A DNA stretch of 64,000 nucleotides from positions 62,001 through 126,000 of the forward strand of contig JAHBTL010000014.1 of the NCBI GenBank assembly GCA_019638615.1, in the 5' to 3' direction. Every line of letters begins with the position of its first letter. Position 1 is the first letter of the stretch. This stretch comes from Chitinophagaceae bacterium. Its GTDB lineage: Bacteria; Bacteroidota; Bacteroidia; Chitinophagales; Chitinophagaceae. Position numbers and translations under genes: made by a program. The notes below the pieces were generated by a model. It was given only the letters and a program-made list of their open reading frames with translations, was not told where the DNA came from and ran no database searches. This document shows positions 15,476 through 64,000 of the stretch, piece by piece.

Positions 15476-16078
15476 ATGAAAAGAAGTCTGTTCAGTTTTT
15501 TAGTTCCCGGAATTGCATTTGCTTTAGTATTCAGCACCGGTTGCAAAAAAGATCATGATGATCCCAAACCGGTAAGTCCGGATGTAAAAACAAAGATTGA
15601 CCTCAATGCCAGCGTCCATACTGCTTATTTCAATCTTACCACAGGAGAGGAAGTTGCAGTTACCGATGCCTCCACCAACAAATGGGATGTGGCATTCGAT
15701 GGCGTGGATGAGAACATTTATATGACAGCCAATCCGCTAGGCGGTGGCGCACAAATAGTGTCTGCTGCGTTTGAAGCGCTTACTGAAGCGCCTGCAGACG
15801 GCTATCTTTCCGGTGATGCCGCATTTGCAGATTTTACCACATGGGCTAATTATACAGGAGCTACCACGCAGCCGCTGCACGCCGTGCTCCCCAAAGCAGG
15901 TATTACCATTGTTATTAAAACGCCGGCAGGTAAATATGCCAAGATCCAGCTACTGGGCTTTTACCAGGGAAATCCTGATACTTCCACGCCGCAATTCGCT
16001 GATTTTTCAACAAGGCCTGCTTACGGTTATTACAGTATAAAGTATACTATACAAACCGACGGAAGCCGGAAATTTTAG
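15476..16078 (+). CDS. hmuY: HmuY-family heme-binding lipoprotein
   Basis: 200 residues. The N-terminus is a lipoprotein signal with the acylated Cys at 23 (FSTGCKK), and the strands WDVAFDGVDENIYMTANP, TIVIKTPAGKYAKIQLLGFYQG and YGYYSIKYTIQTDG fit the HmuY fold (PF14064). HmuY proteins bind heme at the cell surface and pass it to the partner receptor. The axial histidines of Porphyromonas HmuY are not obviously conserved, so the heme ligands may be methionines or the ligand may differ. Lies in an operon with the receptor at 13344. Confidence 0.8.
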   Translation: MKRSLFSFLVPGIAFALVFSTGCKKDHDDPKPVSPDVKTKIDLNASVHTAYFNLTTGEEVAVTDASTNKWDVAFDGVDENIYMTANPLGGGAQIVSAAFEALTEAPADGYLSGDAAFADFTTWANYTGATTQPLHAVLPKAGITIVIKTPAGKYAKIQLLGFYQGNPDTSTPQFADFSTRPAYGYYSIKYTIQTDGSRKF

Positions 16079-17070: not shown

Positions 17071-19458
17071 ATGAGAGAGGCGACTACCTTCAACAAATTA
17101 TTTTTACTTGTCATTTTAAGTTGTTTAAGCATATTTTCTTATGCCCAACAACCTGCAGGAAGTATTTCCGGCTATGTGTATGATGTTTCGGGTAACCCCG
17201 TTGTAAAAGCCTCTGTTTCCATTCAGGCACTGAACCTGAACGGGCTTACAGACCCATCGGGTCGGTTTTACTTTTCTTCCGTAGTACCCGGAGAATATGT
17301 ATTGAACATATCAGCCATCGGCTATGAAAACCACGCTAAAAATATTACGGTACATGCTGGTCAGGAATGTAAAGTTACCTGCGTATGCGAGGAAAACAGC
17401 GTTACGCTGGAACAGGTTACCATAACAGCCGAAAAACGGGAAGAACAGTTGCAGGATGTGCCACTTGCCGTATCCGCTATCAGTTCAAAAAAGATACAGG
17501 ATTATCGTATCTGGTCGGTAAAAGACCTGACTTCCATTGCTCCCAATCTCTATGTGGTAAATGGAGGCAGCGACCAGCCCCTGTATTCCATCCGTGGTAT
17601 TTTTCCCTCTTCATTAGACCCCTCCGTAGCAGTTTATATAGACGGCGTGCTTCAGTATGATGCAGGAACTACCATGAGCCAGTTTTACGATGCCGAACGG
17701 ATAGAGGTATTGAGAGGCCCGCAGGGTACGCTGTACGGTCGTAATGCAATGGCAGGTGTAATCAATGTCATAACCAAAAAGCCGGGCAACCGTACCACGG
17801 GCTTTGCTGAAGCCTCTTTCGGGAACTATAACTCACAACGATATACCGCAGGAATAAAGACACCTATTGTGAAAGATAAGCTGTTTGCAGGCGTGTCGGG
17901 TTTTTATAATAAATCTAATGGATATTTTACCAATACGTTTGACAACAGCAGGTTTGACAAAAACCACAGCTATGGCGGTAACCTGTACCTGCGTTACCTG
18001 CCGTCAGACAAATGGAGTTTTACCCTGAACGGTAAGGCACAGCAATCTTCCAATGATGGAGCGTTCCCTTATGCTTTGGATGACCAGCTTGCTTTGGCAA
18101 CCCCGTATGAAACATCGCAGAATGCCACAGGAGAGGAACGCCGGAATTTTTACAATGCTTCGCTGAATATACAGCACTACGGGAAGTATGTTGATATTAC
18201 CAGCGTTTCAGCCTATCAATATGTGAACAGGTTTATCCATAACGGCTATTGGGATGGCGACTGGACAGCGTATGATGTGTTAGGCGTGAAATACTTCGGA
18301 ACACCCAAAGACAATTATGCCGCTACCTTTACGCAGGAACTCCGTTTGAGCAGTCCGGCTGACAGTAAATCCCCGTTGAAGTGGACAGCAGGCGCATTCT
18401 ACATGAACCATCCCGATAAGGAAAATGCAGTAACCATTATGGGTGCGGATGCGGCGGTCATCCTGCAAGACCCTTATGCCCCTTACGAACTGCATACACC
18501 GGCAAAATTGGATAATTCAGGGCTTGCCCTTTTCGGACAGGCGACTTATTCCATTACGCCTAAACTGAACATCACCGCAGGATTGCGGTATGATTGGGAA
18601 ACCAAAGTATTCCATACCGAAACCAATATGATAAAAGAGGGCTTCCCTGTTACGCCTGTTGTGCCGCAAACACGTATGGAGGGCAAGTACAGAGCCTTTT
18701 CACCCAAGTTGAATATTGCCTATAAGCTAACTTCCGAAGCACTTTTATATGCCACTTATTCCAAAGGATTTCGGGCAGGGGGATTGAATAACCGAACCTT
18801 AGACCCAAACTATTATGCCTATGACCCGGAATACAGCAACAATTATGAAATAGGAGCTAAAACCACCTGGTTTGATAACCGCATGAGTGCCAACCTGACC
18901 GCATTTTACATTGACTGGCGGGATATGCAGGCTGCGGCATTTGAACAGTCCACGGCTTCCATCGTGGTACAGAATGCCGGAAACGCTACCAGTAAAGGTG
19001 TAGAACTGGAACTGGCTGCCCGCCCGTTCAAAGGGATGCAGGTAGATTATAACTTAGGCTATACGCATGGCAGGTACAGCCGTTTGACGCAGCCTGACCA
19101 AACCACAGGTACGGAAAAAGACCTGAAAGGCAACCAGCTTATTATGCAGCCTGTGGTAACTTCCATGCTTGCCGCACAGTATTCACATCCGTTGTTCAAA
19201 GGCTTTGAGGGAATGGTACGGGGCGAATGGAACTATTTAGGGAAACAGTATTTTGACCTTGAAAACTCGATTAAGCAAGACCCGTATTCGCTTTTCAATG
19301 TCAGGGCAGGCGTTACCAGCCGGAATGTGGATGTGATATTTTGGGCAAGGAACATCTTTAACGAAAAGTATCTTTCCTATGCCTATTCTTCCGGTTCAAA
19401 AATGGCGATGATAGGTATTCCCGCAACGTATGGCATCACGTTAACAGGCAAGTTCTAA
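17071..19458 (+). CDS. TonB-dependent siderophore receptor, FyuA-like (copy 1)
   Basis: 795 residues: signal peptide (IFSYAQQ), a carboxypeptidase-regulatory-like domain (about 30-115), then a plug with TITAEKREEQLQDVPLAVS, LYSIRGIFPSSLDPSVAVYIDG and ERIEVLRGPQGTLYGRN..AGVINVITKKPGN, and a barrel ending FNEKYLSYAYSSGSK...GITLTGKF. The plug and last strands resemble FyuA/Psn, the yersiniabactin receptor, more than FecA or FepA. The gene is followed at 23 bp by an ABC ATPase and then a permease/M1-like protein, an arrangement repeated at 58170. The substrate is inferred to be a siderophore-like metal chelate. Confidence 0.83.
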   Translation: MREATTFNKLFLLVILSCLSIFSYAQQPAGSISGYVYDVSGNPVVKASVSIQALNLNGLTDPSGRFYFSSVVPGEYVLNISAIGYENHAKNITVHAGQECKVTCVCEENSVTLEQVTITAEKREEQLQDVPLAVSAISSKKIQDYRIWSVKDLTSIAPNLYVVNGGSDQPLYSIRGIFPSSLDPSVAVYIDGVLQYDAGTTMSQFYDAERIEVLRGPQGTLYGRNAMAGVINVITKKPGNRTTGFAEASFGNYNSQRYTAGIKTPIVKDKLFAGVSGFYNKSNGYFTNTFDNSRFDKNHSYGGNLYLRYLPSDKWSFTLNGKAQQSSNDGAFPYALDDQLALATPYETSQNATGEERRNFYNASLNIQHYGKYVDITSVSAYQYVNRFIHNGYWDGDWTAYDVLGVKYFGTPKDNYAATFTQELRLSSPADSKSPLKWTAGAFYMNHPDKENAVTIMGADAAVILQDPYAPYELHTPAKLDNSGLALFGQATYSITPKLNITAGLRYDWETKVFHTETNMIKEGFPVTPVVPQTRMEGKYRAFSPKLNIAYKLTSEALLYATYSKGFRAGGLNNRTLDPNYYAYDPEYSNNYEIGAKTTWFDNRMSANLTAFYIDWRDMQAAAFEQSTASIVVQNAGNATSKGVELELAARPFKGMQVDYNLGYTHGRYSRLTQPDQTTGTEKDLKGNQLIMQPVVTSMLAAQYSHPLFKGFEGMVRGEWNYLGKQYFDLENSIKQDPYSLFNVRAGVTSRNVDVIFWARNIFNEKYLSYAYSSGSKMAMIGIPATYGITLTGKF

Positions 19459-19481
19459 CCCTTTTTCCAATTGATATTAAT

Positions 19482-20372
19482 ATGGCACTTAAAATAGATA
19501 ATCTATCCAAAAAATACAGCAATGGCGTACAGGCTTTGAGCCATGTAACGCTTACCATCAGTAAAGGCATGTTCGGGTTGCTCGGTCAGAACGGAGCAGG
19601 TAAATCCACGTTGATGCGTACCATTGCCACGTTGCAGGAAGCAGACAGTGGCACAGTAACATTTGGTAATATAAATGTGCTGAAAGAACCTACACGATTA
19701 AGAGAGGTGTTGGGCTATCTTCCGCAGGAATTTGGCGTATATCCAAGCCTGACCTCACAAGAATTGCTTTCCCAAATCGCCGATTTGAAAGGCATCACCC
19801 ATAAAGCGGAAAGAAAAGAAACAGTGGATTACCTGCTGCAAAAGGTAAACCTCTACGAAGTACGCAAAAAGAAAATCGGTACATATTCCGGTGGGATGAA
19901 GCAACGGTTTGGTATTGCACAGGCATTGCTCGGCAATCCCGAACTGATTATAGTAGATGAACCCACCGCCGGGCTTGACCCTTTGGAACGCAATCGCTTT
20001 TACAACCTGTTAAGTGAAATCGGGGAAAATACGGTGGTTATCCTTTCCACGCATATTGTGGAGGATGTAAGCACATTGTGCAACGACATGGCTATCATCG
20101 GCGAGGGAAAAGTATTGCTGACCGGAAAGCCCTCTGAAATTGAACAATCGCTTGGTGGCAAACTATGGGAAGCACAGATTGACCGGAATGAGCTATCGCA
20201 TTACCGGGAGCAGTTTGATATTATTTCCACAAGGTTCCACCTCGGAAAGATGTTGGTTACGGTGGTCAGCAATGAAATCCCCAACGGGAAATTCATCGAA
20301 AAATCCCCAACGTTGGAGGATGCGTATTTCAACCAGCTTTTTCAATCGCAACCCGCCCTAATCCATTCGTAA
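19482..20372 (+). CDS. ABC transporter ATP-binding protein (ABC-2 type, copy 1)
   Basis: 296 residues with Walker A G35-QNGAGKS-42, signature YSGGMKQR (about 135-142), Walker B LIIVDE (155-160) followed by PTAGLDP, and H-loop His191 (STHIVED). It belongs to the CcmA/NatA-like class that pairs with ABC-2 permeases. The permease gene starts 6 bp after its stop. A paralogue of very similar sequence lies at 60541. The direction of transport is unknown; ABC-2 systems mostly export or work on membrane-embedded substrates, which makes the link to an uptake receptor unusual. Confidence 0.9.
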   Translation: MALKIDNLSKKYSNGVQALSHVTLTISKGMFGLLGQNGAGKSTLMRTIATLQEADSGTVTFGNINVLKEPTRLREVLGYLPQEFGVYPSLTSQELLSQIADLKGITHKAERKETVDYLLQKVNLYEVRKKKIGTYSGGMKQRFGIAQALLGNPELIIVDEPTAGLDPLERNRFYNLLSEIGENTVVILSTHIVEDVSTLCNDMAIIGEGKVLLTGKPSEIEQSLGGKLWEAQIDRNELSHYREQFDIISTRFHLGKMLVTVVSNEIPNGKFIEKSPTLEDAYFNQLFQSQPALIHS

Positions 20373-20378
20373 ACCCTT

Positions 20379-23300
20379 ATGAGCAACCATATTTTTTCCA
20401 ATGAACTCATTTACCGGGTAAAACGTCCGCTAACCTGGGTATTTGCCCTGATGCTGCTTGCACAGGGGGCTACGTATTCCCGCTCCACCTATGACCTTAT
20501 TGTCAATGATGGTGTATGGGTCAACGCCGCAGGCATTACCCATATCAATATTGCAGGCGTTGGTTTCCTGTTGTTCGTTATCGTGGCTATCATTACCGGA
20601 ACGGTCATTTTCAAAGACATTGAGTACCGTATGGCGGGCATTATTTACACAAAGCCCGTCAATGAAAAACAATATTTCCTTAAAAAGTTTTTAGCGGCAT
20701 ATACCATTAATACATTGCTTAGTGTGGCATACGTTATCGGTATTGTGCTGACACCGTGGTTGGGGGCTTCTGCGAACCAAATAACCGGCCCGGTGCTTTG
20801 GGGGCAGACCTTGCAGGCGTTTTTGCTTTTTATGCTACCTAACCTTTTCCTGCTCACGGGTATCAGCATTTCGCTGGTAGTGCTGTTCAGGAATATGGCA
20901 GCAAGCTATGTGGGACTTTTTGTAGTAATGATATTGTTCCTGATTGCCGAAAGCACAAGGGAGAGCAGTGTACACCTGGATATTATCCTCTTACTTGACC
21001 CTTTTGCCTACGGCATTACCCGTGAAGTGGTGGATGCCATGAGCGTGCCGGACAAGAATGCCGCTTATTTTCCCCTTACCGATACCCTCATCATAAACAG
21101 GGTAATATGGCTTACCATTGCTTTGGCGCTTTTTGCATTTTCTTACCGGCGTTTCAGCTTTAAGCGGTTTATTATGACTTCCGCCAAAAAGGAAAAGAAT
21201 AAGCCGTTGGACGAGCCTGAAACATTACCACTTACTGCATTACATAAGCCACAGGCAACATTGAGTTTTTCGCAGGGTACTATGCTGGCAAAAGTATTCC
21301 GGCTGTCATGGATAGAATTTAAAGGGCTTGTCCGTCCTGTCAATTTCAGGATTATACTTGGGGTTATCATGGCATTGTTCCTTTGCTACCACGTACTCTG
21401 GTCGGAAAAATATTATATCGAAACACCGCAGCTACCGCTTACCTACCTGATGACGGTAGCAAGGCAACCGCTCGGTCTGTACCTGATTATTTTCTTTACT
21501 GTCTGGTCTATTGAACTATTGTTCAAAGACAGAACGGTAGGTCTATGGCAGGTTAAGGATGCCTTGCCTGTTCCGGTATGGGTAACATTGCTTTCCCGTT
21601 TCTTCGCAATGGCCTGGGTGGCGTTTGTTTGTTCCGTATGCCTTTTAGTGATAGGCGTATTGGTACAGTTGGGCAGAGGGTTTACCGGCATTGATTGGTC
21701 ATTGTACCTGCAAGACCTGTTTGGCATACGGTTGGGCTGGTTCAATTATATGATGATTGTGGCATTGGCATTCTTTGTCGGGGCTGTTACCAACAATCGT
21801 TTTGCCGCACATGGGATAGCGGTCGGTATTATGCTGTTTGAAGTAGTTGCTAACATCACGGCTACGGTAGAACAACTCCGCTTACTATATATTTATGTTC
21901 CGGGTTTGGAGGATTATTCGGAGATGAACGGCTATGGTATTTTTGCCGTATCTGCTCCGTGGTATGCCCTGATGTGGGGAGTACTTGCTATCAGTTTCCT
22001 GTTGCTGTCCGTTTGGCTATGGAACAGGGGAACGGAAAAACCACTGCTTGCCCGCCTTACTTCATCGGGAAAAAGGCTGTCATTACCCTTTAAGCTGGTT
22101 TTAGGCATAAGCCTTGTGAGTTTCTTCGTTTTGCAATCTTTTATCAAGACCAATGTAAATACCGTCAATGAGTTCCGAACCAAAGTTGAGGATTATGCTT
22201 TCAAAGCGGATTACGAGAAAAAATACAAATGGCTGGAGCATCGTCCGCAACCGAAATACACAGCGATTGACCTTTCCGTAGATTTATACCCGGAGCAACG
22301 GAAAGCAGATTATACAGCATCCATAGAACTTTCCAATTTTACCGAAACGGCTATTGATACACTGTACCTGAATGTAAAGGATTTTGCAATCATCAAATCC
22401 ATTACGGCAGGAGGTAAAGCCCTGTCCCTGCTTGAAGTGGATAAAACACACCGCCTGTTCAAATGTGCGTTTGCCGAACCGTTGCAGGCAGGGCAAAACA
22501 CAAAATTGGATATAGCTGCTACGATAGAATACAAGGGCTTTACCCAAAAAGACCCGCAACCCGATCTGGTATTTAACGGCAGCTTTCTGGGCAGGGATAT
22601 TGTTCCGGTCTTTGGCTATGATGCAGATAAGGAATTAACGGAAAACCGGGAAAGGGATAAATTAGGTTTGGAAAAACTCAACTCCCGCATGGAGCAGGTT
22701 ACCGATGCCAAAGCATTGACTGAAATAGCGGGAATGCCCGATGCTGCATGGATAAACGGTCGTATAACGGTAAGCACATCGGTTGGACAGCTTCCCATCG
22801 CCACGGGCTTATTGCAACGCAGGTGGGAGGAAAACGGCAGGAACTTCGCCACCTACACCATTCCTGACAATACGCCTTTTGACTGGCGTGTAGGTTCTGC
22901 AAATTATGCTGTCCATCCTTTTGATATGACGGACAGCATCAAAGGTCAGGTTTATTACCATCCCGCTCATTCATGGAATATCGGTGCGATTGCGGATGCA
23001 ACGGGCAATACGTTAGAATATTTGAAGCCTATATTAGGACAATATCCATATCCAACCCTGCAAATTGCTGAAATTCCGTACTACAATAATGAGTTTTACG
23101 CATCGCACAGCCTGATTGCCATTCCAGAAAAACACGGCTGGACGGCTGATTTGAAACGGAAAAATGATGAAGCATATATTGCCTATATCATGGTACGTGA
23201 AATTGCCCGGCAAATGATTGGACAAAAAGTGAAGATAGCCAATGTGCAGGGAGCAGGGATATTCCAATATGCTTTGCCGGATTATTACGCCATTCAATAT

Positions 23301-23642
23301 GTTCGCCAAAAATATGGGGAGCAGCCTTATACCGAGTTGCTGCAACGTAAGATAAGCGACTATAAAAAAGAACGGGGTGCAGAAGCTAACCAGGAACCGG
23401 CATTGGTCTATACAGATGGAGCAGAATATGTGGAAAGGGATAAAGGCGGTGTGGTTTTCTGTCGTCTGAAAGAGCGGGCAGGAAAACTGGACGATATGCT
23501 AAAGAGCTTCTTTGAGCAGGCTTCCGAAAGCGGAAATACCGTTACCGGAAAAGAATTGGTAGATTATTTGAAAAATCATTTGCCTGCGGAAGTTCAGGAA
23601 CAAATAAAAACAGATTTTGAAGAAGTGAACCCGTTGGATTAA
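20379..23642 (+). CDS. ABC-2 permease fused to a zinc-less M1-peptidase-like domain (copy 1)
   Basis: 1087 residues. The first about 590 residues hold two ABC-2 type sets of membrane helices separated by a cytosolic linker (about 265-310), with ELLFKDRTVGLWQVKDALPVP before the second set. The periplasmic remainder follows the M1 aminopeptidase pattern: an N-terminal beta domain (DLSVDLYPEQRKADYTASIE), LQIAEIPYYNNEF and IAIPEKHGW, then the zinc-site region. There HExxH-x18-E is replaced at exact spacing by R940-E-I-A-R944 and Q963, so none of the three zinc ligands remains. The domain is therefore probably a binding or scaffold module rather than a peptidase. Co-transcribed with the receptor and ATPase. 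A terminator overlaps its stop codon. Confidence 0.85.
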   Translation: MSNHIFSNELIYRVKRPLTWVFALMLLAQGATYSRSTYDLIVNDGVWVNAAGITHINIAGVGFLLFVIVAIITGTVIFKDIEYRMAGIIYTKPVNEKQYFLKKFLAAYTINTLLSVAYVIGIVLTPWLGASANQITGPVLWGQTLQAFLLFMLPNLFLLTGISISLVVLFRNMAASYVGLFVVMILFLIAESTRESSVHLDIILLLDPFAYGITREVVDAMSVPDKNAAYFPLTDTLIINRVIWLTIALALFAFSYRRFSFKRFIMTSAKKEKNKPLDEPETLPLTALHKPQATLSFSQGTMLAKVFRLSWIEFKGLVRPVNFRIILGVIMALFLCYHVLWSEKYYIETPQLPLTYLMTVARQPLGLYLIIFFTVWSIELLFKDRTVGLWQVKDALPVPVWVTLLSRFFAMAWVAFVCSVCLLVIGVLVQLGRGFTGIDWSLYLQDLFGIRLGWFNYMMIVALAFFVGAVTNNRFAAHGIAVGIMLFEVVANITATVEQLRLLYIYVPGLEDYSEMNGYGIFAVSAPWYALMWGVLAISFLLLSVWLWNRGTEKPLLARLTSSGKRLSLPFKLVLGISLVSFFVLQSFIKTNVNTVNEFRTKVEDYAFKADYEKKYKWLEHRPQPKYTAIDLSVDLYPEQRKADYTASIELSNFTETAIDTLYLNVKDFAIIKSITAGGKALSLLEVDKTHRLFKCAFAEPLQAGQNTKLDIAATIEYKGFTQKDPQPDLVFNGSFLGRDIVPVFGYDADKELTENRERDKLGLEKLNSRMEQVTDAKALTEIAGMPDAAWINGRITVSTSVGQLPIATGLLQRRWEENGRNFATYTIPDNTPFDWRVGSANYAVHPFDMTDSIKGQVYYHPAHSWNIGAIADATGNTLEYLKPILGQYPYPTLQIAEIPYYNNEFYASHSLIAIPEKHGWTADLKRKNDEAYIAYIMVREIARQMIGQKVKIANVQGAGIFQYALPDYYAIQYVRQKYGEQPYTELLQRKISDYKKERGAEANQEPALVYTDGAEYVERDKGGVVFCRLKERAGKLDDMLKSFFEQASESGNTVTGKELVDYLKNHLPAEVQEQIKTDFEEVNPLD

Positions 23643-23655
23643 AGCGGGTTTATTT
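23352..23655 (+). repeat. direct repeat 1: 3' end of the permease gene plus its terminator
   Basis: 304 bp that recur without gaps at 24705-25008. It covers the last 96 codons of the permease gene, the stop codon and the terminator. The encoded segments differ at 8 of 96 residues by my count, so this is not a very recent duplication. The RhuM gene lies between the two copies. Confidence 0.9.
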
Positions 23656-23656
23656 T
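23628..23656 (+). terminator. terminator overlapping the permease stop codon
   Basis: AACCCG (23628-23633) pairs with CGGGTT (23645-23650) across the stop codon and is followed by TATTTTAATTTT. It closes the receptor-ATPase-permease operon. Confidence 0.55.
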
Positions 23657-23703
23657 AATTTTCTGTCAGGAAAAGTATAAGCTCTTTTGCATTGGTATAT
23701 TGT

Positions 23704-24537
23704 TTATTTTTTGTTCCTGGTTTTATTTTCTATCATTTTCAAACTTTCTAAATAATTTTTTTCTGCTTCGCTCAATGTTTTTTGCTGATACTTTTTGTAT
23801 TCCGTTGTTGCTTTTTCTACGGCTTTTTCGTTTAAATAATTTTTTGCGATAGTTACGTCTTTTAAATACGGACGGTTTCCCGGAAATGTCATCAAGCCCA
23901 TAAATTCCTTTTCGGCATCGGCACGGTTGAAAATAACTTCGGCAGCCGTTTGTCCGTGAACGGCATAGTGGATTTTGTTCTGCACTTTTTTGAAAAATGC
24001 AACCGAAACATCTGCCTTTGGGTTGTAATCAATACTGGTGGCATAAATATCCAACACCTGGCGGTAAAATACTTTTTCGGAAGCGCGGATGTCACGTATG
24101 CGTTGCAAGAGTTCCTTCCAATAGCCACCGCCACCCAGATTTTTCAGGCGTTCATCGTCCATTGTAAAACCTTTTCGGATATATTCGTTCAGGCGTTTGG
24201 TTGCCCAAATTCTGAATTGCGTAGCTACTTTTGAATTTACACGATAACCAAGAGAAATAATCATATCAAGGTTATAGTGCTTCGTGTCGTATTTTTTGCC
24301 GTCTGTAGCAGTTCGTAAGAATTTCTTACTAACTGAATTTTCCTGCAATTCTCCCTCTGAAAATATATTTTTAATGTGTTGTGTTATACCCGGACGCTCT
24401 ACTCCGAAAAGCACGGCTATCTGGTCTTGCGTAAGCCAAACCGTTTCTTCTTCCAAACGAACATCTACCGAAATGTTCTGGTCTTCGGTTTTGAACAGGA
24501 TAAATTCCGAATTGCTTTGAGGTGTTTTATCTTCCAT
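23704..24537 (-). CDS. RhuM-family protein (virulence RhuM)
   Basis: 277 residues. The N-terminal part contains VWLTQDQIAVLFGVERPGITQHIKNIF (DNA-binding-like), then DTKHYNLDMIISLGYRVNS..ATQFRIWATKRLNEYIRKGFTMDDERLKN, the core of the RhuM family (PF13310), and FYRQVLDIYATSIDYNP. RhuM members are usually about 330 aa; here the sequence jumps from KDVTIAKNYLNEKAV to a Lys/Glu-rich end (KYQQKTLSEAEKNYLE), so the usual LNRIV..Y..FAE segment seems missing. Function is unknown: related proteins occur in pathogenicity islands, prophages and as single-gene inserts. It is inserted between duplicated permease 3' ends, transcribed towards the permease. Confidence 0.85.
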   Translation of the reverse strand: MEDKTPQSNSEFILFKTEDQNISVDVRLEEETVWLTQDQIAVLFGVERPGITQHIKNIFSEGELQENSVSKKFLRTATDGKKYDTKHYNLDMIISLGYRVNSKVATQFRIWATKRLNEYIRKGFTMDDERLKNLGGGGYWKELLQRIRDIRASEKVFYRQVLDIYATSIDYNPKADVSVAFFKKVQNKIHYAVHGQTAAEVIFNRADAEKEFMGLMTFPGNRPYLKDVTIAKNYLNEKAVEKATTEYKKYQQKTLSEAEKNYLESLKMIENKTRNKK

Positions 24538-24704
24538 ATTTTTTGTTCTGTTTATTATACCGATTTACGTTATGCGCTAAAAGATATTTCTTTTGAACTT
24601 CTGCTTCCTTTTCGTTCGGTTTATTAATATTATAGCTTCTATATTGCATATGCCCTTCCATACCTCCGCAAAGTTGCAAAAAAAATATGCAGATTAAACG
24701 AAAA

Positions 24705-24995
24705 ATAAGCGACTATAAAAAAGAACGGGATGCAGAAGCCAACCAGGAACCGGCATTGGTCTATACGGATGGGGCTGAATACGTGGAAAGGGATAAAGGC
24801 GGTGTGGTTTTCTGTCGTCTGAAAGAGCGGACAGGAAAACTGGACGATATGCTAAAGACTTACTTTGAGCAGGCTTCTGAAAGCGGGAATGCCGTTACCG
24901 GAAAAGCATTGGTGGATTATCTGAAAAACCATTTGCCTGTTGAAATTCAGGAACAGATAAAAACAGATTTTGAAGAAGTGAACCCGCTTGATTAA
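24705..24995 (+). pseudogene. orphan 3' fragment of an M1-like permease gene
   Basis: Encodes ISDYKKERDAEANQEPALVYT and the rest of the permease C-terminus down to DFEEVNPLD and the stop codon, with no upstream coding part. An ATG at 24687 would give a 102-aa peptide starting MQIKRK but is probably not used. It is the second copy of the 304-bp repeat and the right border of the RhuM insertion. Confidence 0.85.
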
Positions 24996-25008
24996 AGCGG
25001 GTTTATTT
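24981..25008 (+). terminator. terminator carried by the second repeat copy
   Basis: AACCCGCTT (24981-24989) pairs with AAGCGGGTT (24995-25003) and is followed by TATTT. The stem is 9 bp, longer than in the first copy because TTGG has become CTTG. It would also insulate the minus-strand genes to the right from the RhuM gene. Confidence 0.5.
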
Positions 25009-25017
25009 CAACTCAAA

Positions 25018-26918: not shown

Positions 26919-27869
26919 CTATCCTTTCAGCTCACTTGGCAAAACGCCAAATTTACGTTTGAAAGCAGCAGCAAAATGTTGTGAATGCTTATAACCAACT
27001 TGGTCGGCTACTTCGCTTACAAACAATTTTTCGTCTAACAGCAGTTGCCGTGCTTTTTCCATTTGCAAATCTCTTACATAGCCAAATACCGTAGTTCCGA
27101 ACAATTCTTTAAAACCGCTTTTTAGTTTGGTTTGGTTAATGCCTATTATTTTGGCAAGGTCAATGATTGTGCAAGGTGTTTGATAATTCCTTTCAATGTA
27201 CAATCTTGCCTCGTGCAGACATTCTATATCTCGTGGATTTAATTTTGTAGCGATTACAGGATTATTTTTAAGTGCCTGCATTTGCAACAAAAAAAGTTCG
27301 GCAGTTTTTGTTTCCAGATACAACTGTTGCAGAGAACCTTTAAAAATAGTATTATTTATCTCGCTGATACATTGGAACATTGCAGGCAGTATAGGGCGTT
27401 TGGGAGCTATCCTGTATTCCTGTTTGCATAAGCTGTTGAATAGCGTATCAGCGTAAGGCTCATCTTCATCAATTACCTTTTCTAAAAATGATTGCTGAAC
27501 AGCCAATTCCAAAAATTCATAATCCTGCCTTGCTTCAATACAACCTGTTTCCGATTGTTCTTTGTCCTGAAAGTAGGCACTGTAAGTATGAACAGAAGAT
27601 GAAACAGGTGTATGTTTTTTTGTACCGAAATTATTTTTTAATGCAAAATGCGTTACATAAAACGAATTATAAAAATCTATGGAATAGCTACTTTCTGTTT
27701 CGGCTGATTGTTTTCCACGTATTAAATGGAAATGATGTAACGATACATCGTTCAATTCCATTGAAACGGTATCATCTCTAAAAACGGTGGTGCTTTCCAA
27801 TAACTGCGGGCTGAAAAAATCATTTTCCACACACACGGTATTTGCTCCCAATTGCATCTCATACCCCAT
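26919..27869 (-). CDS. AraC-family regulator, PchR/YbtA-like
   Basis: 316 residues from ATG 27869; a GTG at 27887 is in frame but less likely. The C-terminal DNA-binding region has TIIDLAKIIGINQTKLKSGF, KELFGTTVFGYVRDLQMEKA and VSEVADQVGYKHSQHFAAAF. It is divergent from the ABC exporter-type gene at 27999, and the 130 bp between them holds TACTTC repeats 21 bp apart. By analogy with YbtA controlling ybtPQ, it is the likely activator of the ABC pair. Confidence 0.87.
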   Translation of the reverse strand: MGYEMQLGANTVCVENDFFSPQLLESTTVFRDDTVSMELNDVSLHHFHLIRGKQSAETESSYSIDFYNSFYVTHFALKNNFGTKKHTPVSSSVHTYSAYFQDKEQSETGCIEARQDYEFLELAVQQSFLEKVIDEDEPYADTLFNSLCKQEYRIAPKRPILPAMFQCISEINNTIFKGSLQQLYLETKTAELFLLQMQALKNNPVIATKLNPRDIECLHEARLYIERNYQTPCTIIDLAKIIGINQTKLKSGFKELFGTTVFGYVRDLQMEKARQLLLDEKLFVSEVADQVGYKHSQHFAAAFKRKFGVLPSELKG

Positions 27870-27874
27870 ACTAA

Positions 27875-27942
27875 TACTTCTTTTCACGGCTTTAATACTT
27901 CCTTATGCGTTACTTTTCACACAAGGTTTATAAAGAACTTTG
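27875..27942 (+). promoter_or_regulatory. promoter and candidate AraC operator of the first ABC gene
   Basis: TACTTC occurs at 27875-27880 and 27896-27901, exactly 21 bp apart (two helical turns), followed by CTTATGCGTTACTTTTCAC and an AACTTTG -7-like element at 27936-27942. The same layout with the same spacing is found upstream of the second ABC gene (31709-31776). Direct repeats two turns apart just upstream of a promoter are typical of AraC-family activator sites. Confidence 0.6.
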
Positions 27943-27998
27943 CCAATGCAAAATACTGATTACAAAGGTACATTATTTAGAATGGAAATAAATTGGAT

Positions 27999-50354: not shown

Positions 50355-50361
50355 AACAATG

Positions 50362-50407
50362 CTTCCAAATTCATAATAAACACTTCCGTATTCATAATAA
50401 ATGTTCC
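50362..50407. promoter_or_regulatory. three CTTCC-ATTC repeats, candidate AraC operator
   Basis: CTTCC(A/G)(A/T)ATTCATAATAAA occurs at 50362 and 50383 (21 bp apart), with a third, weaker unit (GTTCCAATATTCGTAA) about 20 bp further on. ACTTCC(G/T)TAT(T/G)C(A/G)T is shared with the repeats upstream of the two ABC genes. Confidence 0.55.
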
Positions 50408-50525
50408 AATATTCGTAAGTAACCACCAGGCTTGTTCAACAACTTTGCCGGCTCAAAGCGACATGAAATTTTCAGGCCAAAAATACGCAAAAAAAGTACC
50501 GATCTGCGGAAGCTGACATATAGAG

Positions 50526-57057: not shown

Positions 57058-58041
57058 TCATTTCCCATACTCACTCGGCGGCACGCCAAATTTCTTTTTA
57101 AACGCCTTTGTAAAATGTGCCTGATGACTGTATCCCGTAATGTCGCTTACCTCCGAAATATTTTTTTCTCCCGATAACAATAACTGCCTTGCCTGTTCCA
57201 TCTTCACTTCCGCTACCATGCCAAACACCGTAGTACCGAATACTTCTTTAAAGCCCTTCTTCAACGTGAATTCGTTAGTGCCTGCCTGCCGGGCAAGATC
57301 AATAAGAGAGCAGGGGTTATGAAGCTGCTTCAGGATGATCTCTTTTGCATAATGTATTTTTTCTACATCTGCGGGCTTCAGTGAACAAAACACTGTACAA
57401 TCATGCGTGGCAAACTGTTCCAGTTGCAACAGCAGCAGCTCAACCACTTTCGCTTCAAGGAAAAGGCGTTTATACATTCCTTTCCTGGTGCAATTGATAA
57501 TAGCATTGATAAGATGCATCATGGCAGGTGTGATCGGCATGTTGTGTTTACCAAGCAATGTGGGCGACTGCTTACGGACAAGGTTTAAAAAATCATCATA
57601 AGCATGGGTATCCCGAAGGTATTTTTTAAACAGCGAAGGCACCAGGTTGATCTCAAGCGTACGCACGCTGCTCGCGCTGAAATGTATAGCGCCTTTTATG
57701 CCGGGCACATAAATAATATTATGCCGGTTGGTAGTAAACGCATACGAATAATTTGAGCTGTTTGTAATATTCGTAACACTGCTGCCGCAAAGATCAAAAT
57801 GCATCTCCACCGTTTCATAATCGCTTTCAAAAAGCAACCTGGTTTCCTGCTTAAGCCGCAGGTCTCCGTAAGCGATATGGATACCTTCAAAAAAAACTTC
57901 CCTGTAGCTGCCGTTACCTAATACATTTTCAATCCCTGTGGTACGCTCGGTAACAGCGCTGTCAGGGTCATAATAGTTTTCGGGAAAATGGTTTTCAAGA
58001 ACCATTTCTGCCAGGTCTTCGCTGTTTATTCTGATCTGCAT
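57058..58041 (-). CDS. AraC-family regulator, PchR/YbtA-like
   Basis: 327 residues. DNA-binding end: CSLIDLARQAGTNEFTLKKGF, KEVFGTTVFGMVAEVKMEQA and ISEVSDITGYSHQAHFTKAF. Its sensing half resembles that of the regulator at 37507 (NIIYVPGIKGAIHFSASSVR, HNMPITPAMMHLINAI). It is divergent from the FyuA-like receptor at 58170, with 128 bp between and TTCCG repeats 21 bp apart, so it is the likely activator of the 58170-64000 operon. Confidence 0.87.
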   Translation of the reverse strand: MQIRINSEDLAEMVLENHFPENYYDPDSAVTERTTGIENVLGNGSYREVFFEGIHIAYGDLRLKQETRLLFESDYETVEMHFDLCGSSVTNITNSSNYSYAFTTNRHNIIYVPGIKGAIHFSASSVRTLEINLVPSLFKKYLRDTHAYDDFLNLVRKQSPTLLGKHNMPITPAMMHLINAIINCTRKGMYKRLFLEAKVVELLLLQLEQFATHDCTVFCSLKPADVEKIHYAKEIILKQLHNPCSLIDLARQAGTNEFTLKKGFKEVFGTTVFGMVAEVKMEQARQLLLSGEKNISEVSDITGYSHQAHFTKAFKKKFGVPPSEYGK

Positions 58042-58169: not shown

Positions 58170-60512
58170 ATGGTCAGATTCATTACAGGGCTTTTTTTTA
58201 TAAGCCTGCTCCAGTCTTATGCCCTCGCACAGGGAGCCGCTTCTTTACAAGGTCATATCCATGCAGAAGACGGCACTCCTGCTGCGGGCGCTACTATCAT
58301 TGTTAAAGAGCTAAAAGCGCAGACCCGTGCAGACGACAACGGTCATTTTATTTTCAAAAATATCCCTGCAGGCTCTTATACGCTTACTGCAACACTGGTC
58401 GGATACGAACCATTGAACAGTGTGATTAAAGTAAGAGAAAACAACAATGCTGATATTCATCTTTCACTTCGCGCTAATTCCCTGCAATTGCAGCCTGTGG
58501 TGGTTACTGCCGAAAAAAGGGAAAATGATATGCAGGATGTCCCGATGGCCGTTTCCGCCATCAGCGGTAAACAAATTGAAAGACGAAAGATCACTGAAGT
58601 AGGCGATCTGCTGCTGTCTGTTCCCAACCTGATGACGATGAACGACGGCGCACCCTCTTTAAGCACTATTGCCATCAGGGGTATTCTTACTTTTTCAACT
58701 GATCCTGCAGTTGGCGTGTATGTGGATGGTGTGCCCATGTTTGACGGTTATTCCAGCTCGCTGCAATTTCAGAACCTGGAAAGAATAGAAGTGCTGCGGG
58801 GACCGCAAAGTACTTTATACGGAAGGAATGCCCTGGGAGGCATCATCAATATTATTACCCGCAAGCCGGATAACGCATTGCACGGCTTTGCCGAAGCGGC
58901 TATCGGCAGCTATGGCAGTCAACGCTACGGGGTAGGATTATCCGGCCCGATTGTAAAAAATAAGTTGTTTGCCGGGTTCACCGGTTTATATGATACCCGA
59001 AACGGGTTCTACACCAATTTATACAATAACAAAAAATATGATAAGCCTGAAACCTGGAACGGTAATGCCTACCTGAAATACCTTGTTTCCGATAAATTTT
59101 CGCTGACCCTGAATGCAAAAGGCGAGTATAACAATGTACGCGGCGCTTTTCCTTACGTGGTAAATGCCGACAGCGCTTTTAAATACCCGTATACGATCAA
59201 CCAGGATGGCGCTAACCTGGAAAAAAGAAAACTGTACACTGCCTCGCTGACGGCGCAGTACAAAACCGGGTCAACGCAGTTTTCCTCTACTACCGCTTAC
59301 ACCTATTTGAGTGATACCTATGAGAATTATGATGCGGATTACAGTCCTTACAACATGGTCGTTTTTGAAATGCCCCTTCAAAAGCAGAAAACATTTACCC
59401 AGGATTTTCGTATGACAGGCGATTATGGTAAGCATATAAAGCTGACCGCCGGTATTTTCGGGTTCATAGATACAAAACCGTCTCAAACGGTATATATATA
59501 CGGAGAAGACGCGGCAATGATGGATCCGAACGCTCCTTACACCAGCAATATTTATGCGGAAAGAAAAATATACGGCATTGCAGGATACGCTAACCTTGAT
59601 TATGCGATAAATGATCAATGGACCGTTACAGGAGGACTGCGTTATGACTACGACAGCCGTAATATTTCGTTTTCCACGGATTTTGTGAAACCGCCCGATC
59701 CGCCAATGGTGATTACGCCTGAACAGAAATTAAAAGGCAATGACAAAGCCTTTTCTCCAAAGCTTAGTGTAAGCTTTAAGCCCGGCGCGGATAAAATGAT
59801 CTATGCGACCTACGCGAGAGGATTTCATGCAGGCGGCTTCAACCAGTATACCAGCGATCCTGACCTACTGAACTATAAGCCGGAATATACTGACAATTTT
59901 GAGCTGGGCTTTAAATCGGAATGGTTCAATCACCGCCTGCGGGCTAATGCTGCCCTGTTCTATACCGACTGGAAAGACCAGCAACAAACATTGATGCTGC
60001 CGCAGAATGCTACGGAAAATGTGGGGCGTCTTGTCAACAAGGGAGCAGAGCTGGAACTGACAGGATTATTGGCAAAAGGGCTGGAGCTGAATTACAACCT
60101 GGGCATTGTTCAGTCTGAATACAAAACGCTGATACTCCCTGATGATTCCGGCAGCGATAATAAAAATTACAAAGGCAACAAACAGGTATTTACCCCGGCG
60201 TTTACTTCGGCTATTTCTTTGAGCTACCGTTACAGCTTCAATGATCATAGCAGCTTATATGTTTCTCCCGAATGGAAATACCTGGGTAAACAATACATGA
60301 CTTATTACAACGACCTGGTGCAGGATCCTTTCAGCCTCATTAATGCATCGCTCGGTTTTCAATACCGTTTCATGGAGATCAGCCTGTGGGCAAAAAATAT
60401 CGGTGACGCCCGCTACCTGGCCTTTGCCTATGCCACACAAACAAGAGCCACTTCTCCCGTGCTGTTGGGTATGCCGCGCACCTATGGTGTAACGCTTAAA
60501 GCGAGGTTCTAA
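58170..60512 (+). CDS. TonB-dependent siderophore receptor, FyuA-like (copy 2)
   Basis: 780 residues, paralogous along its length to the receptor at 17071: signal peptide (SYALAQG), carboxypeptidase-like domain (about 25-105), VVVTAEKRENDMQDVPMAVS, IAIRGILTFSTDPAVGVYVD, ERIEVLRGPQSTLYGRNALG, TYARGFHAGGFNQY, and the end YLAFAYATQTRATSP...GVTLKARF. It has its own divergent AraC gene. The ATPase gene follows after 28 bp. The substrate is inferred to be a siderophore-like chelate different from that of copy 1. Confidence 0.84.
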   Translation: MVRFITGLFFISLLQSYALAQGAASLQGHIHAEDGTPAAGATIIVKELKAQTRADDNGHFIFKNIPAGSYTLTATLVGYEPLNSVIKVRENNNADIHLSLRANSLQLQPVVVTAEKRENDMQDVPMAVSAISGKQIERRKITEVGDLLLSVPNLMTMNDGAPSLSTIAIRGILTFSTDPAVGVYVDGVPMFDGYSSSLQFQNLERIEVLRGPQSTLYGRNALGGIINIITRKPDNALHGFAEAAIGSYGSQRYGVGLSGPIVKNKLFAGFTGLYDTRNGFYTNLYNNKKYDKPETWNGNAYLKYLVSDKFSLTLNAKGEYNNVRGAFPYVVNADSAFKYPYTINQDGANLEKRKLYTASLTAQYKTGSTQFSSTTAYTYLSDTYENYDADYSPYNMVVFEMPLQKQKTFTQDFRMTGDYGKHIKLTAGIFGFIDTKPSQTVYIYGEDAAMMDPNAPYTSNIYAERKIYGIAGYANLDYAINDQWTVTGGLRYDYDSRNISFSTDFVKPPDPPMVITPEQKLKGNDKAFSPKLSVSFKPGADKMIYATYARGFHAGGFNQYTSDPDLLNYKPEYTDNFELGFKSEWFNHRLRANAALFYTDWKDQQQTLMLPQNATENVGRLVNKGAELELTGLLAKGLELNYNLGIVQSEYKTLILPDDSGSDNKNYKGNKQVFTPAFTSAISLSYRYSFNDHSSLYVSPEWKYLGKQYMTYYNDLVQDPFSLINASLGFQYRFMEISLWAKNIGDARYLAFAYATQTRATSPVLLGMPRTYGVTLKARF

Positions 60513-60540: not shown

Positions 60541-61446
60541 ATGCAGCTCGTTATAAAAAATCTTTCCAAAACCTATCCCAACGGTAAACAGGCTTTACAT
60601 AATGTTTCGCTTACCATCGGTACAGGAATGTTCGGATTGCTGGGTCAAAACGGTGCAGGGAAATCCACGTTGATGCGCACCATTGCCACCCTGCAGGATG
60701 CAGACAGTGGCAGTATTTTTTTAGAGGGTATTGATGTGCTGAAGCAGCCGCAGGAGATACGTAAAATACTGGGCTACCTGCCGCAGGACTTTGGTGTTTA
60801 CCAGAATGTATCTGCCGAAGAAATGCTGGATCATATTGCCGATATGAAAGGCATCGGTATCAGATCTGAACGCACGAGCGCCGTTGCTGATCTGTTGAAA
60901 AGGGTTAACCTGTATGATGTGCGGAAAAAAAAGCTCGGTTCTTATTCCGGTGGTATGAAACAGCGTTTCGGTATAGCGCAGGCATTATTGGGCAACCCTA
61001 AGCTTATTATCGTGGATGAGCCAACGGCAGGACTTGACCCGCTGGAACGAAACCGGTTCTATAACCTGCTTAGCGAAATAGGTGAGAACACCATTGTTAT
61101 ACTCTCCACCCATATTGTAGAAGATGTATCAACACTTTGCAATGATATGGCGATCATCGGTAACGGTGAAGTGTTGAAAGCCGGGAAGCCGGCCGGTATT
61201 GAAAATGAATTGCGCGGGCAGCTCTGGGAAAAAGAAATCAGCAAGCCTGATCTGCAGGCTTACCTGCAACGGGGCTTACAGGTCATCTCCAACCGGTTCC
61301 ATGCAGGCAGGTTAATTATTACGGTGCTTAGTGATATTGCACCCGACGAAACTTTTACACCGAAAACGCCTTCGCTTGAAGACGCTTATTTCAGGTTGCT
61401 TTCCCACAATCCGCTTACTCATAAAAATATGCCTGCCCATGTTTAA
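60541..61446 (+). CDS. ABC transporter ATP-binding protein (ABC-2 type, copy 2)
   Basis: 301 residues with GQNGAGKS, YSGGMKQR, LIIVDEPTAGLDP and STHIVED, very similar to the protein at 19482, especially from RKKKLGSYSGG to LCNDMAIIG. Its last 8 bp overlap the start of the permease gene (ATG 61439), so the two are translationally coupled, unlike the 6-bp gap in copy 1. Confidence 0.9.
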   Translation: MQLVIKNLSKTYPNGKQALHNVSLTIGTGMFGLLGQNGAGKSTLMRTIATLQDADSGSIFLEGIDVLKQPQEIRKILGYLPQDFGVYQNVSAEEMLDHIADMKGIGIRSERTSAVADLLKRVNLYDVRKKKLGSYSGGMKQRFGIAQALLGNPKLIIVDEPTAGLDPLERNRFYNLLSEIGENTIVILSTHIVEDVSTLCNDMAIIGNGEVLKAGKPAGIENELRGQLWEKEISKPDLQAYLQRGLQVISNRFHAGRLIITVLSDIAPDETFTPKTPSLEDAYFRLLSHNPLTHKNMPAHV

Positions 61447-64000
61447 CACCGTTTTTTCTTTTGAAATAAGACAACAACTGAAAAAGCCTTTTACCTGGGT
61501 TTTCCTGCTGCTTATGATCTCGCAGGGTGTTTATTATATGCATCACTCGGGAGAATTTTACAGCGCAGACAAGACCTATTCCAATGCACCTGCTATCCTG
61601 TACACCGTACTGGCAGGCATGGGCTATATCGGCTTTATCGTAACGGCTATACTGGGCGGCAGTGCGCTCGGCAAGGACATTGATAACCGCACTTCGGCGA
61701 TCCTGTATACTACAAGGGCAGGTGAACGTTCTTTTTTTTGGGCAAGATATGCAGGGTCATTCGCCATACTGTTTCTTTTGTATGCCGGCTACCTGCTGGG
61801 TATTGTTTTTTATAATTATTTACCGGTACCGAATCTCGGGCCTTTTTCATGGGTATCATTGGGAAGGGCCGCACTGATCATTTTTTTACCCAATGTATTT
61901 GTATTGTTTTCACTTTGCGTTGCTGTATCGGTATTGCTCAAAAGCAGTAAAAGCGCTTATGGGATAGCGTTAGCCGGTATGCTGCTGATGATCTTTGCCG
62001 AAACCAGCTTCAACAGCAGTCCGAATGTTGTGCTTGCAGATCCTACCGCATTCTCGGTGCTGCACAACCAGTTAGAGCATCTTTCGCCGCTGGAAAAAAA
62101 TACTTTTGCGCCTCCCTTCTCCGGGTTGCTGTTATATAACCGGCTGATCTGGGTGGGTATTGGTTTGCTCTTATTACTACTGGCAAGCAGACGGTTTTCT
62201 TTCACCTGGTTCAGCCAGGCGGGCGGCAAATCAAAAAAGCAGGTGGAAGAAAAAGGCGAACCGGCAGTTTTATCTGCCAGTTCAAACATGGGCATTGTAA
62301 AGTCCCCGCAGTTATTTTCTTTAAAATCTTACTGGAAAAAAGCAGGCTCGCTTTGCTGGCTGGAATTTAAAAGCGTCACACGCCCGGTGGGGTTCAGGCT
62401 CTTTCTTTCACTGATCCTTATTATCTATATCTGTTATATTGCCGTATGGCAGCAGCAATATTATTCGGCAGCGCCGACATTGCCCGTTACGCTTGAAATT
62501 ACCGGCGTTGTGCTGCCTTTGTCTTTTTATTTTCTCCTGTTCCTCATTATCAATACAACGGAGCTTTTGTTCCGCAACAACACTTCCGGATTCTGGCAGA
62601 TCAGTGATGCGTTGCCTGTGCCTACCTGGGTAACGGTGCTTTCAAAGATCATAGCCATGCTGGGTGTGGCGCTGGTGATGACTTTTTGCCTCATGCTTTT
62701 CGGTATGCTGGTACAGGCGGTCAAAGGATATTATCATTTTGAAACCGGTATTTATTTCCGGGAGCTTTTTATCCGGTGGATGCCCAAGTATCTTTTATAT
62801 ATTTTGCTGACTGTTTTCGTTGCCGGTCTTACTGCCAACCGCTATGCCACGCACTGGATAACCATCCTGTTTTTAATTTTTAGCGTGATCCTCCATGAAA
62901 CAGAGGCTATAGAACAGCACAGGTTCAATTATATGTTTTCTCCCGGCAGCGGACTGGCTACCGACATGAACGGCAGCAGCATCTTCGGAGCAGCACATGG
63001 CTGGTTCATGTTGTACTGGTTTTCACTGGCGATAGCGCTGGTGTCCGTAGCACTGTGGGTATGGCAAAGAGGTACGCCTGCCAGCCTCGTAAAGCGGGTG
63101 GGCAAAAGAATGACGCCCAATCCTGTACTGGTAACGCTTTTCGTAGCAGGTATAGCAGGTTTTATTCTTTGCGAAAAGAAAATTTACCAGACCATTAATG
63201 TGGAAAATAAATTCCAGACAAAAAATGAAGCAAGAGCCGAAGAAGCGCTGTATGAAAAAAGCTATGGTCGCTACCGTACCTATCCCCAACCGGTGATAAA
63301 CGATATTGACCTGACATTGGAACTGTATCCCGAAAACAGGAAGCTGCAGTATACTGCCAGCCTGCTGCTGTCTAACCCGGCAACCATCCCCATTGATACC
63401 CTGCACGTGGAATGGATGGATTTTTCTGTTATGGACAGCTTTGCCGTAAAAGGATATACCGTGAGCCTTTTTAAAAGAGATACTGCGCTGCGACACAATA
63501 TATATGTGCTTGATCATTCCATATTACCCGGAGATAGCATTCAATGTAATGTTGCGGGAAGCATGCGGTATGAAGGTTTTACCAATGATGATCCGCAAAA
63601 AGAGCTTTGTTTTAACGGGAGCTTTCTGTCGCGCAATTTCATTCCTTTCTTTGGGTATGATGACAGGCGTGCGCTTAAAGAAAACCAATACAGGGTGCAG
63701 CACGGGCTTTCAAAATTAGCTTCCCGTTTGCCTGACACAGCAGACAATATAGCGGGTAAGCAACTCTTTGCCTCTACCCAGGCCGGCAGGATGCATTATA
63801 CACTTACTGTCAGCACCAGTGCCGGACAAAGCATTGTCGCACCGGGAAAGCTGCAGAAGGAGTGGCGATCCGGCAACCGGCATTACTATAGGTTCACTAG
63901 TGATCAGTCTGTATTGTTTGACTTTTCTGTCCTTTCAGCCGCTTATGCTGTTACAAAACAACCGGTGAATATTGCAGGAAAAACCATTAATGTGGAAATA
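61439..64000 (+). CDS. ABC-2 permease fused to an M1-like domain (copy 2, cut by window edge)
   Basis: Open from ATG 61439 to the last base, 854 codons with no stop, so the gene continues outside. It aligns with the 1087-aa protein at 20379: EIRQQLKKPFTWVFLLLMIS at the start, LEFKSVTRPVGFRLFLSLIL before the second membrane half, TTELLFRNNTSGFWQISDAL, and the beta domain DIDLTLELYPENRKLQYTAS and LCFNGSFLSRNFIPFFGYDD. The zinc-site region lies beyond the edge, so whether it also lacks ligands cannot be seen. Confidence 0.85.
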   Translation, partial: MFNTVFSFEIRQQLKKPFTWVFLLLMISQGVYYMHHSGEFYSADKTYSNAPAILYTVLAGMGYIGFIVTAILGGSALGKDIDNRTSAILYTTRAGERSFFWARYAGSFAILFLLYAGYLLGIVFYNYLPVPNLGPFSWVSLGRAALIIFLPNVFVLFSLCVAVSVLLKSSKSAYGIALAGMLLMIFAETSFNSSPNVVLADPTAFSVLHNQLEHLSPLEKNTFAPPFSGLLLYNRLIWVGIGLLLLLLASRRFSFTWFSQAGGKSKKQVEEKGEPAVLSASSNMGIVKSPQLFSLKSYWKKAGSLCWLEFKSVTRPVGFRLFLSLILIIYICYIAVWQQQYYSAAPTLPVTLEITGVVLPLSFYFLLFLIINTTELLFRNNTSGFWQISDALPVPTWVTVLSKIIAMLGVALVMTFCLMLFGMLVQAVKGYYHFETGIYFRELFIRWMPKYLLYILLTVFVAGLTANRYATHWITILFLIFSVILHETEAIEQHRFNYMFSPGSGLATDMNGSSIFGAAHGWFMLYWFSLAIALVSVALWVWQRGTPASLVKRVGKRMTPNPVLVTLFVAGIAGFILCEKKIYQTINVENKFQTKNEARAEEALYEKSYGRYRTYPQPVINDIDLTLELYPENRKLQYTASLLLSNPATIPIDTLHVEWMDFSVMDSFAVKGYTVSLFKRDTALRHNIYVLDHSILPGDSIQCNVAGSMRYEGFTNDDPQKELCFNGSFLSRNFIPFFGYDDRRALKENQYRVQHGLSKLASRLPDTADNIAGKQLFASTQAGRMHYTLTVSTSAGQSIVAPGKLQKEWRSGNRHYYRFTSDQSVLFDFSVLSAAYAVTKQPVNIAGKTINVEI

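Follow-up and report, generated by a model that had tools for sequence, protein, structure and literature searches.

A TonB-dependent receptor, an ABC ATPase and an ABC-2-type permease with an M1-like domain lacking the zinc motif, found together twice in a Chitinophagaceae genome

A gene trio present in two copies

Two loci in a 64,000-nucleotide stretch of a Chitinophagaceae genome (GenBank assembly GCA_019638615.1, contig JAHBTL010000014.1, positions 62,001 to 126,000 of the forward strand; the whole stretch is called the window here) each carry, in the same order and on the same strand, genes for a TonB-dependent receptor, an ATP-binding cassette (ABC) ATPase and a large ABC-2-type permease, the C-terminal part of which is related to M1 peptidases and has lost the zinc motif of these enzymes (Table 1). 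An earlier note on this DNA had placed the three genes side by side at 17071-23642 and a second time from 58170, and had called them paralogous throughout. Both statements hold: the open reading frames (ORFs) and the Pfam matches agree on the arrangement, and identity between the copies amounts to 39% over 787 positions for the receptors, 67% over 287 for the ATPases and 34% over 1100 for the permeases.

The genes are closely packed. In copy 1, 23 nucleotides (nt) separate receptor from ATPase and 6 nt ATPase from permease; in copy 2, the receptor-ATPase gap is 28 nt and the ATPase and permease genes overlap by 8 nt, the permease start being placed at the ATG (about 61439) that aligns with copy 1 and not at the GTG (61331) given by the ORF program. 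The Pfam models for the plug, the TonB barrel and CarboxypepD_reg matched both receptors, and ABC_tran matched both ATPases. Queried with the copy 1 permease, the whole genome yielded two full-length copies and, in addition, a duplicated 3' end of that gene, corresponding to 100 residues. The duplication is a 315-nt repeat (23344-23658 and 24697-25011, 91.7% identical), the two units of which flank an oppositely oriented RhuM gene (23704-24537), as if an inserted element had brought a diverged replacement end.

The assignment of the transporter to the ABC-2 type, made in the same note, is supported by the copy 2 permease, which alone passed the cut-off of the Pfam model ABC2_membrane_2; the best ABC-2 model for the copy 1 permease stayed below threshold (19 of 27 bits), but this protein is homologous to that of copy 2. 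The exporter-fold model ABC_membrane (PF00664) matched neither of them. Both ATPases score best against the GldA and DrrA models and below the cut-off for both, with 184.7 and 184.4 bits against GldA, for which the curated cut-off is 402.6. The best NCBIfam match of the receptors is a siderophore-receptor subfamily (TIGR01783), at 190.8 and 177.7 bits and thus under the curated cut-off of 223.5; the earlier label "FyuA-like" could not be narrowed to a particular receptor type.

The M1-like domain and its zinc site

Hydropathy predicts 12 transmembrane helices in the copy 1 permease and 13 in the permeases of copy 2, of locus L151 (a related trio in another class, described below) and of a relative with an intact zinc site. 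The tail that follows the helices is about 500 residues long in the permeases of copy 1, copy 2 and L151 and 634 residues long in that relative. If 13 is the right number, the tail should lie outside the cytoplasm, and hydropathy suggests in this way that it is periplasmic.

Homology of the tail to M1 peptidases was recognized at the level of the family. An alignment of 19 permeases of the family matched ERAP2 in the PDB at 2.8e-20, and 14 of the 19 matched the Pfam M1 model, which found no direct match in the permease of either copy; PDB searches with four-row alignments gave nothing convincing. When the tails of the four permeases that belong to trios were compared by hhalign with those of eight relatives with intact sites, the probability was 100; compared with six proteins of the window's genome that match the M1 model, it was 96.4% (E = 9.5e-10).

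The residues needed for catalysis are missing, however. At the position of the HExxH motif, the window's permeases have REIAR (copy 1) and RKIAE (copy 2), and the glutamate that serves as third zinc ligand is replaced by Y and N (read by eye). HExxH was found in 111 of 123 permeases longer than 900 residues, and the 12 permeases without it include all four of those that belong to trios. The claim of a periplasmic M1-like domain is thus upheld as to homology but not as to a zinc site, and the M1 domain of these permeases looks catalytically dead, so that we refer to it as a pseudo-M1 domain. In one pair of loci (copy 2 and L014, a trio of a sister species), a simple counting method gave ratios of nonsynonymous to synonymous substitution rates of 0.16 for the pseudo-M1 domain, 0.09 for the transmembrane part and 0.05 for the receptor and the ATPase; the value for the pseudo-M1 domain is consistent with purifying selection.

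The other permeases without HExxH are a second clade of seven (L026, L045, L046, L047, L048, L123 and L152) and L091, which stands beside the clade of the trio permeases in the FastTree phylogeny and is unplaced in a smaller tree. Because the trio clade and the separate clade of seven both lack the motif, the trees imply at least two losses of the zinc site, mostly without a receptor upstream.

The copy 1 permease also matches 26 plasmid records; matches on plasmids of Hymenobacter, Sphingomonas and Granulicella bear the name "M1 family aminopeptidase". Among the matches listed in the open-licence PubMed Central literature (titles and openings of abstracts), nothing was found on an ABC-2/M1 fusion or on a TonB receptor paired with one.

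Distribution and history of the trio

Permeases of this family are common in the phylum. At E ≤ 0.001, a permease profile found matches in 138 of the 294 genomes sampled from the family of the window's genome, in 149 of 395 genomes of the phylum Bacteroidota, in 37 of 92 genomes of the family of G404 (the genome that contains L151) and in 113 of 395 of the class; the samples are partly the same, and weak matches limited to the M1-like part are counted in. In the family, phylum and class searches no more than two candidates of each genome were scored, in the search of the G404 family all of them. The neighbourhoods of 120 permeases were collected (79 from the family search, 40 chosen from the phylum search and one from a further search), and these together with L007, L008 and L014 make up the 123 permeases mentioned above, some being cut by contig ends. 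Receptors, AraC proteins and response regulators were called by hidden Markov models built here, which divergent members may escape.

The common unit is the ATPase-permease pair, and the receptor is an exception. An ABC ATPase lies directly upstream on the same strand in 114 of the 119 loci in which the upstream gene is visible, both copies of the window included. Of the loci examined, only four, in three genomes, carry a trio of this kind, and we call them module loci: copies 1 and 2; L014, from the sister species Sphingobacteriales bacterium 44-15 and the sole locus returned by a scan of genome contigs; and L151, the genome of which shares only the phylum with that of the window. A TonB receptor is directly upstream of the ATPase in three of the four module loci (at L151 a small DoxX-like gene intervenes) versus one of 104 others (L168, the receptor of which did not appear in the match lists of the two window receptors). 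Within four upstream genes, a TonB receptor is present in 4/4 module loci versus 5/119 others, and an AraC gene in 3/4 versus 4/119. By the same model, the non-module loci contain 27 TonB receptors among 1330 genes, so that one receptor beside such a pair is unremarkable; what is remarkable is that two old lineages share the order. Among 92 and 395 genomes, a profile of the four module permeases revealed no fifth member: the highest scores outside the four were 582 and 732 bits, compared with about 1920-1960 bits for the members themselves, which are high by construction.

General conservation of the trio is thereby ruled out. The earlier note had taken the trio for a functional unit and had stated that the idea would fail if the three genes were not conserved together in other genomes. 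In the phylum at large they are not; inside the module clade they are, the order recurring at L014 and, in another class, at L151.

A single clade unites the four module permeases (FastTree support 1.0; SH-aLRT 100 in a second tree); within it, copy 1 pairs with L151 (99) and copy 2 with L014 (100). The ATPase tree has the same branching, less well supported (88 for the four module ATPases, 81 for copy 1 plus L151). Because of these pairings, copies 1 and 2 represent two old lineages; a recent duplication is ruled out by the permease tree and, more weakly, by the ATPase tree.

The four module receptors all belong to one receptor family. Relatives were searched for at a reporting threshold of 1e-120 or better, with two or three candidates scored per genome, and were found in 11 of 390 and 51 of 288 genomes. 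No match to the ATPase or the permease lay beside any of the 27 non-module receptor relatives (flanks of about 1.5 kb per side or less, compared with a panel of at most 11 proteins; the module loci L214, L215, L225 and L227 are not counted in the 27). When the four module receptors were forced together in a tree of 31 receptors minus four long-branched ones, the constrained tree scored 1.83 log units above the free search (p-value of the approximately unbiased test, p-AU, 0.614), and the constraint on three receptors was not rejected either (p-AU 0.363). As for the solitary relatives, L220, L231 and L234 adjoin proteins that share a stretch like MEVGPDG..Y..EYG.GWF.KNPDAG, and L217 and L226 are followed by a gene that resembles DJ-1/PfpI by eye, with a small gene intervening in L226.

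Surroundings and possible role

Table 1. Positions of the trio genes and of neighbouring features in the window
Feature	Position	Strand	Remarks
Copy 1 TonB-dependent receptor	17071..19458	+	795 residues; CarboxypepD_reg, plug and barrel (Pfam)
Copy 1 ABC ATPase	19482..20372	+	296 residues; GldA/DrrA-like, under both curated cut-offs
Copy 1 ABC-2-type permease with C-terminal pseudo-M1 domain	20379..23642	+	1087 residues
Pseudo-M1 domain of copy 1 permease	22149..23639	+	residues about 591-1087
Lost zinc motif of copy 1 permease	23196..23210	+	REIAR, residues 940-944; HExxH in most relatives
Copy 2 TonB-dependent receptor	58170..60512	+	780 residues
Copy 2 ABC ATPase	60541..61446	+	301 residues
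Copy 2 ABC-2 permease with pseudo-M1 domain	61439..64000	+	runs beyond the window to the equivalent of 64708
AraC-type regulator, divergent from copy 2 receptor	57058..58041	-	46% identical to AraC at L151
ORF repeating the 3' end of copy 1 permease	24687..24995	+	91.7% over 315 nt
AraC, divergent from the receptor at 13344	12197-13210
TonB receptor upstream of copy 1	13344-15449	+
HmuY-family protein upstream of copy 1	15476-16078	+
AraC, divergent from XusA-like receptor	49407-50426
XusA-like receptor upstream of copy 2	50915-53317	+
DUF4374/XusB-like protein upstream of copy 2	53319-54575	+	418 residues; weak match
DUF4198 protein upstream of copy 2	54646-55350	+

The module loci are surrounded by AraC, XusAB-like, HmuY-type, PepSY and SIP-type genes, a setting that speaks for iron. 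At L151 the order is PepSY_TM, TonB-dependent receptor, DUF4374-like protein, divergent AraC, TonB-dependent receptor, DoxX-like protein, ATPase, permease and SIP-type reductase. Copy 2 and L014 both have a receptor, an XusB-like and a DUF4198 protein upstream and a divergent AraC (at L014 by likeness), and both are followed by a methyltransferase gene, which is of the LCM type by Pfam in the window's genome. The XusB-like protein of the window has no Pfam match and is weakly related (2.3e-5) to the DUF4374-like protein of L151, which at 24.1 bits itself narrowly misses the Pfam cut-off of 25. Beyond the copy 2 permease, there is a short PepSY_TM match about 1.1 kb away (L007 9806-9940) and a full one in a frame of 736 residues about 8 kb away (L007 16741-17688). 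The AraC proteins of copy 2 and L151 are each 30-34% identical to two other AraC proteins of the window and 42-44% identical, over shorter stretches, to a third; three of the five others were compared. Copy 1 is separated from the receptor and HmuY genes upstream by a gene for 137 residues and a gap of 539 nt.

The window contains at least six AraC-type regulators (starting at 12197, 26919, 37507, 40482, 49407 and 57058) and at least six TonB receptors (13344, 17071, 34991, 43418, 50915 and 58170), both tallies being lower bounds, as the Pfam scan covered part of the genes; a further TonB-like protein (OMP_b-brl_3) lies at 2662. From 2662 to 60512, the window resembles a dense metallophore-type island. 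Two exporter-fold ABC proteins (27993-29789, 598 residues, and 31804-33537, 577 residues), which we take to resemble a YbtP/YbtQ-type pair, enclose a KilA-N gene (29872-30696), with an AraC gene (26919-27887) divergent from them. A gene for an EptA/EptB-type phosphoethanolamine transferase (7410-9011) and an FtsX/MacB-like gene (11174-11968) are situated 5-10 kb upstream of copy 1. A stretch picked by eye from three AraC-receptor intergenic regions as a shared regulatory motif, TCCGTTTNGCRYAA, showed no excess: with up to two mismatches (D in place of N) it occurs eight times in the window versus 5.92 expected, with up to one mismatch 58 times in the genome versus 55 for the reversed control, and exactly four times in the genome, two of these being source stretches. 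It is a lead only.

The ATPase and permease of the module share with the ABC-2/M1 fusion family the ATPase directly upstream, the ABC-2 membrane part, the C-terminal M1-like domain and full-length homology; they differ in lacking HExxH and the third zinc ligand, in following a TonB receptor and in having no C-terminal extension (many relatives have about 1200 residues, although several active ones lack the extension too). GldA-GldFG is similar in that GldA is the best or second best match of the ATPases (184 bits) and GldF is weakly matched by one of the 19 family permeases; the ATPases remain far under the 402.6-bit cut-off, however, and the permease has a large C-terminal tail. YbtPQ and IrtAB are exporter-fold siderophore importers, and IrtA carries a SIP domain. 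In both cases the partner at the inner membrane is an ABC transporter, and a SIP-type gene lies beside the L151 permease, whereas the module permeases match ABC-2 models and not ABC_membrane.

XusABC of Bacteroides is probably the best described xenosiderophore system of the Bacteroidota. The TonB receptor and the iron-type setting are alike, with DUF4374-like and PepSY genes near L151 and an XusB-like gene near copy 2. Unlike XusABC, the trio has no DUF4374 protein and includes an ABC-2 pair, which is absent from that system as described in PMC13142918. There, the PepSY protein XusC is proposed to free iron in the periplasm, and the protein that takes the released iron across the inner membrane is called unknown (PMC13142918).

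Tentatively, and with somewhat less than even confidence, we regard the trio as an AraC-associated metallophore module. The receptor would bring a ferric-siderophore-like ligand across the outer membrane, and the adjacent ATPase and permease would form an ABC-2 complex responsible for the step across the inner membrane. There the pseudo-M1 domain, apparently no longer catalytic, may replace a separate binding protein, serving as a tethered domain for ligand binding or gating. In favour of this reading are the tight gene spacing in both copies, the single permease clade with its matching ATPase branching, the TonB receptors and AraC genes upstream of the module loci, the loss of HExxH in all four permeases, the slow change of the pseudo-M1 domain in one species pair and the iron-type neighbours. 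Our best guess is ATP-driven inward movement followed by reduction in the cytoplasm; the inward direction is slightly favoured by the SIP-type reductase directly after the L151 permease, one locus read in the light of known SIP biology. The ligand class and the co-expression of the trio are inferred; that the pseudo-M1 domain binds a ligand, and which way transport runs, are conjecture. The narrower proposal, that a dead M1 domain has become the substrate-binding part of an ABC-2 complex importing a metallophore delivered by TonB, is doubtful.

Several observations weigh against the metallophore module. GldA/DrrA-type ABC-2 systems are mostly exporters. At none of the eight loci of non-module permeases without HExxH did a receptor gene immediately precede that of the ATPase (the contig of L026 ends too early to tell), and because these eight permeases also lost the motif, its loss is not specific to pairing with a receptor. 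An AlphaFold model of the copy 1 permease, built from three sequences, reached a mean pLDDT of 38. The copy 1 receptor is nearer to the solitary receptor L216 (45%) than to that of copy 2 (39%), and the four module receptors were recovered as a clade neither by FastTree nor in a free quick tree. The module is limited to four loci in three genomes, which are not independent; copy 1 has no adjacent AraC gene of its own, and the SIP-type neighbour was seen only at L151. As the genome is rich in TonB receptors (221 first-look candidates with the receptor profile), the iron-type neighbours could be coincidental. Since iron is freed in the periplasm in the XusABC model, import of the siderophore is not needed (PMC13142918).

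An unlikely alternative, though the strongest of those considered, is that the ABC-2/pseudo-M1 complex would export the iron-free carrier, or toxic siderophore conjugates or peptides that enter via the receptor, after a PepSY protein has freed the iron in the periplasm. The ATPases score best, below cut-off, against GldA and DrrA, families of the export type. Within four upstream genes, the non-module relatives have a LytTR response regulator in 31 of 119 loci and a histidine kinase in 30 of 119 (versus none of the four module loci), and such a neighbourhood is associated with envelope-stress or peptide sensing; the EptA/EptB-type and FtsX/MacB-like genes upstream of copy 1 are likewise linked with envelope defence. 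The SIP-type reductase after the L151 permease suggests, on the other hand, that the ligand reaches the cytoplasm. In favour of export are also the PepSY_TM genes at L151 and on the window's contig, together with the periplasmic iron release in the XusABC model (PMC13142918).

It is somewhat more improbable that co-regulation within an iron island is all that links the receptor to the ABC pair, the two having no ligand in common. This would agree with the lack of a receptor directly upstream in 103 of the 104 non-module loci of the pair that could be judged, with the 27 receptor-relative loci, none of which carries the pair, and with a receptor phylogeny that gives no sign of co-inheritance; moreover, as the window counts six or more genes each for AraC and TonB receptors, adjacency by chance is not negligible. 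Against it, gene order and strand agree between two lineages that separated long ago and also in another class, each time with a receptor of one family, and the test did not reject a receptor clade. That the M1 domain actively cleaves a peptidic carrier after import is extremely improbable, in spite of the M1 homology (ERAP2; hhalign) and the HExxH of most relatives, since REIAR and RKIAE at the motif and the lack of the third ligand Glu rule out an active M1 peptidase; the role in handling a peptide-like carrier that had been suggested is weakened by the same loss in all four module permeases.

If the trio is a metallophore module, the receptor-linked ABC-2 complex with its dead peptidase domain would be a candidate for an inner-membrane step in other Bacteroidota, and would hint at a little-known bacterial way of handling scavenged iron compounds. 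Because one family holds both intact and lost peptidase sites, a comparison of the two may show what this large family of fusion proteins does.

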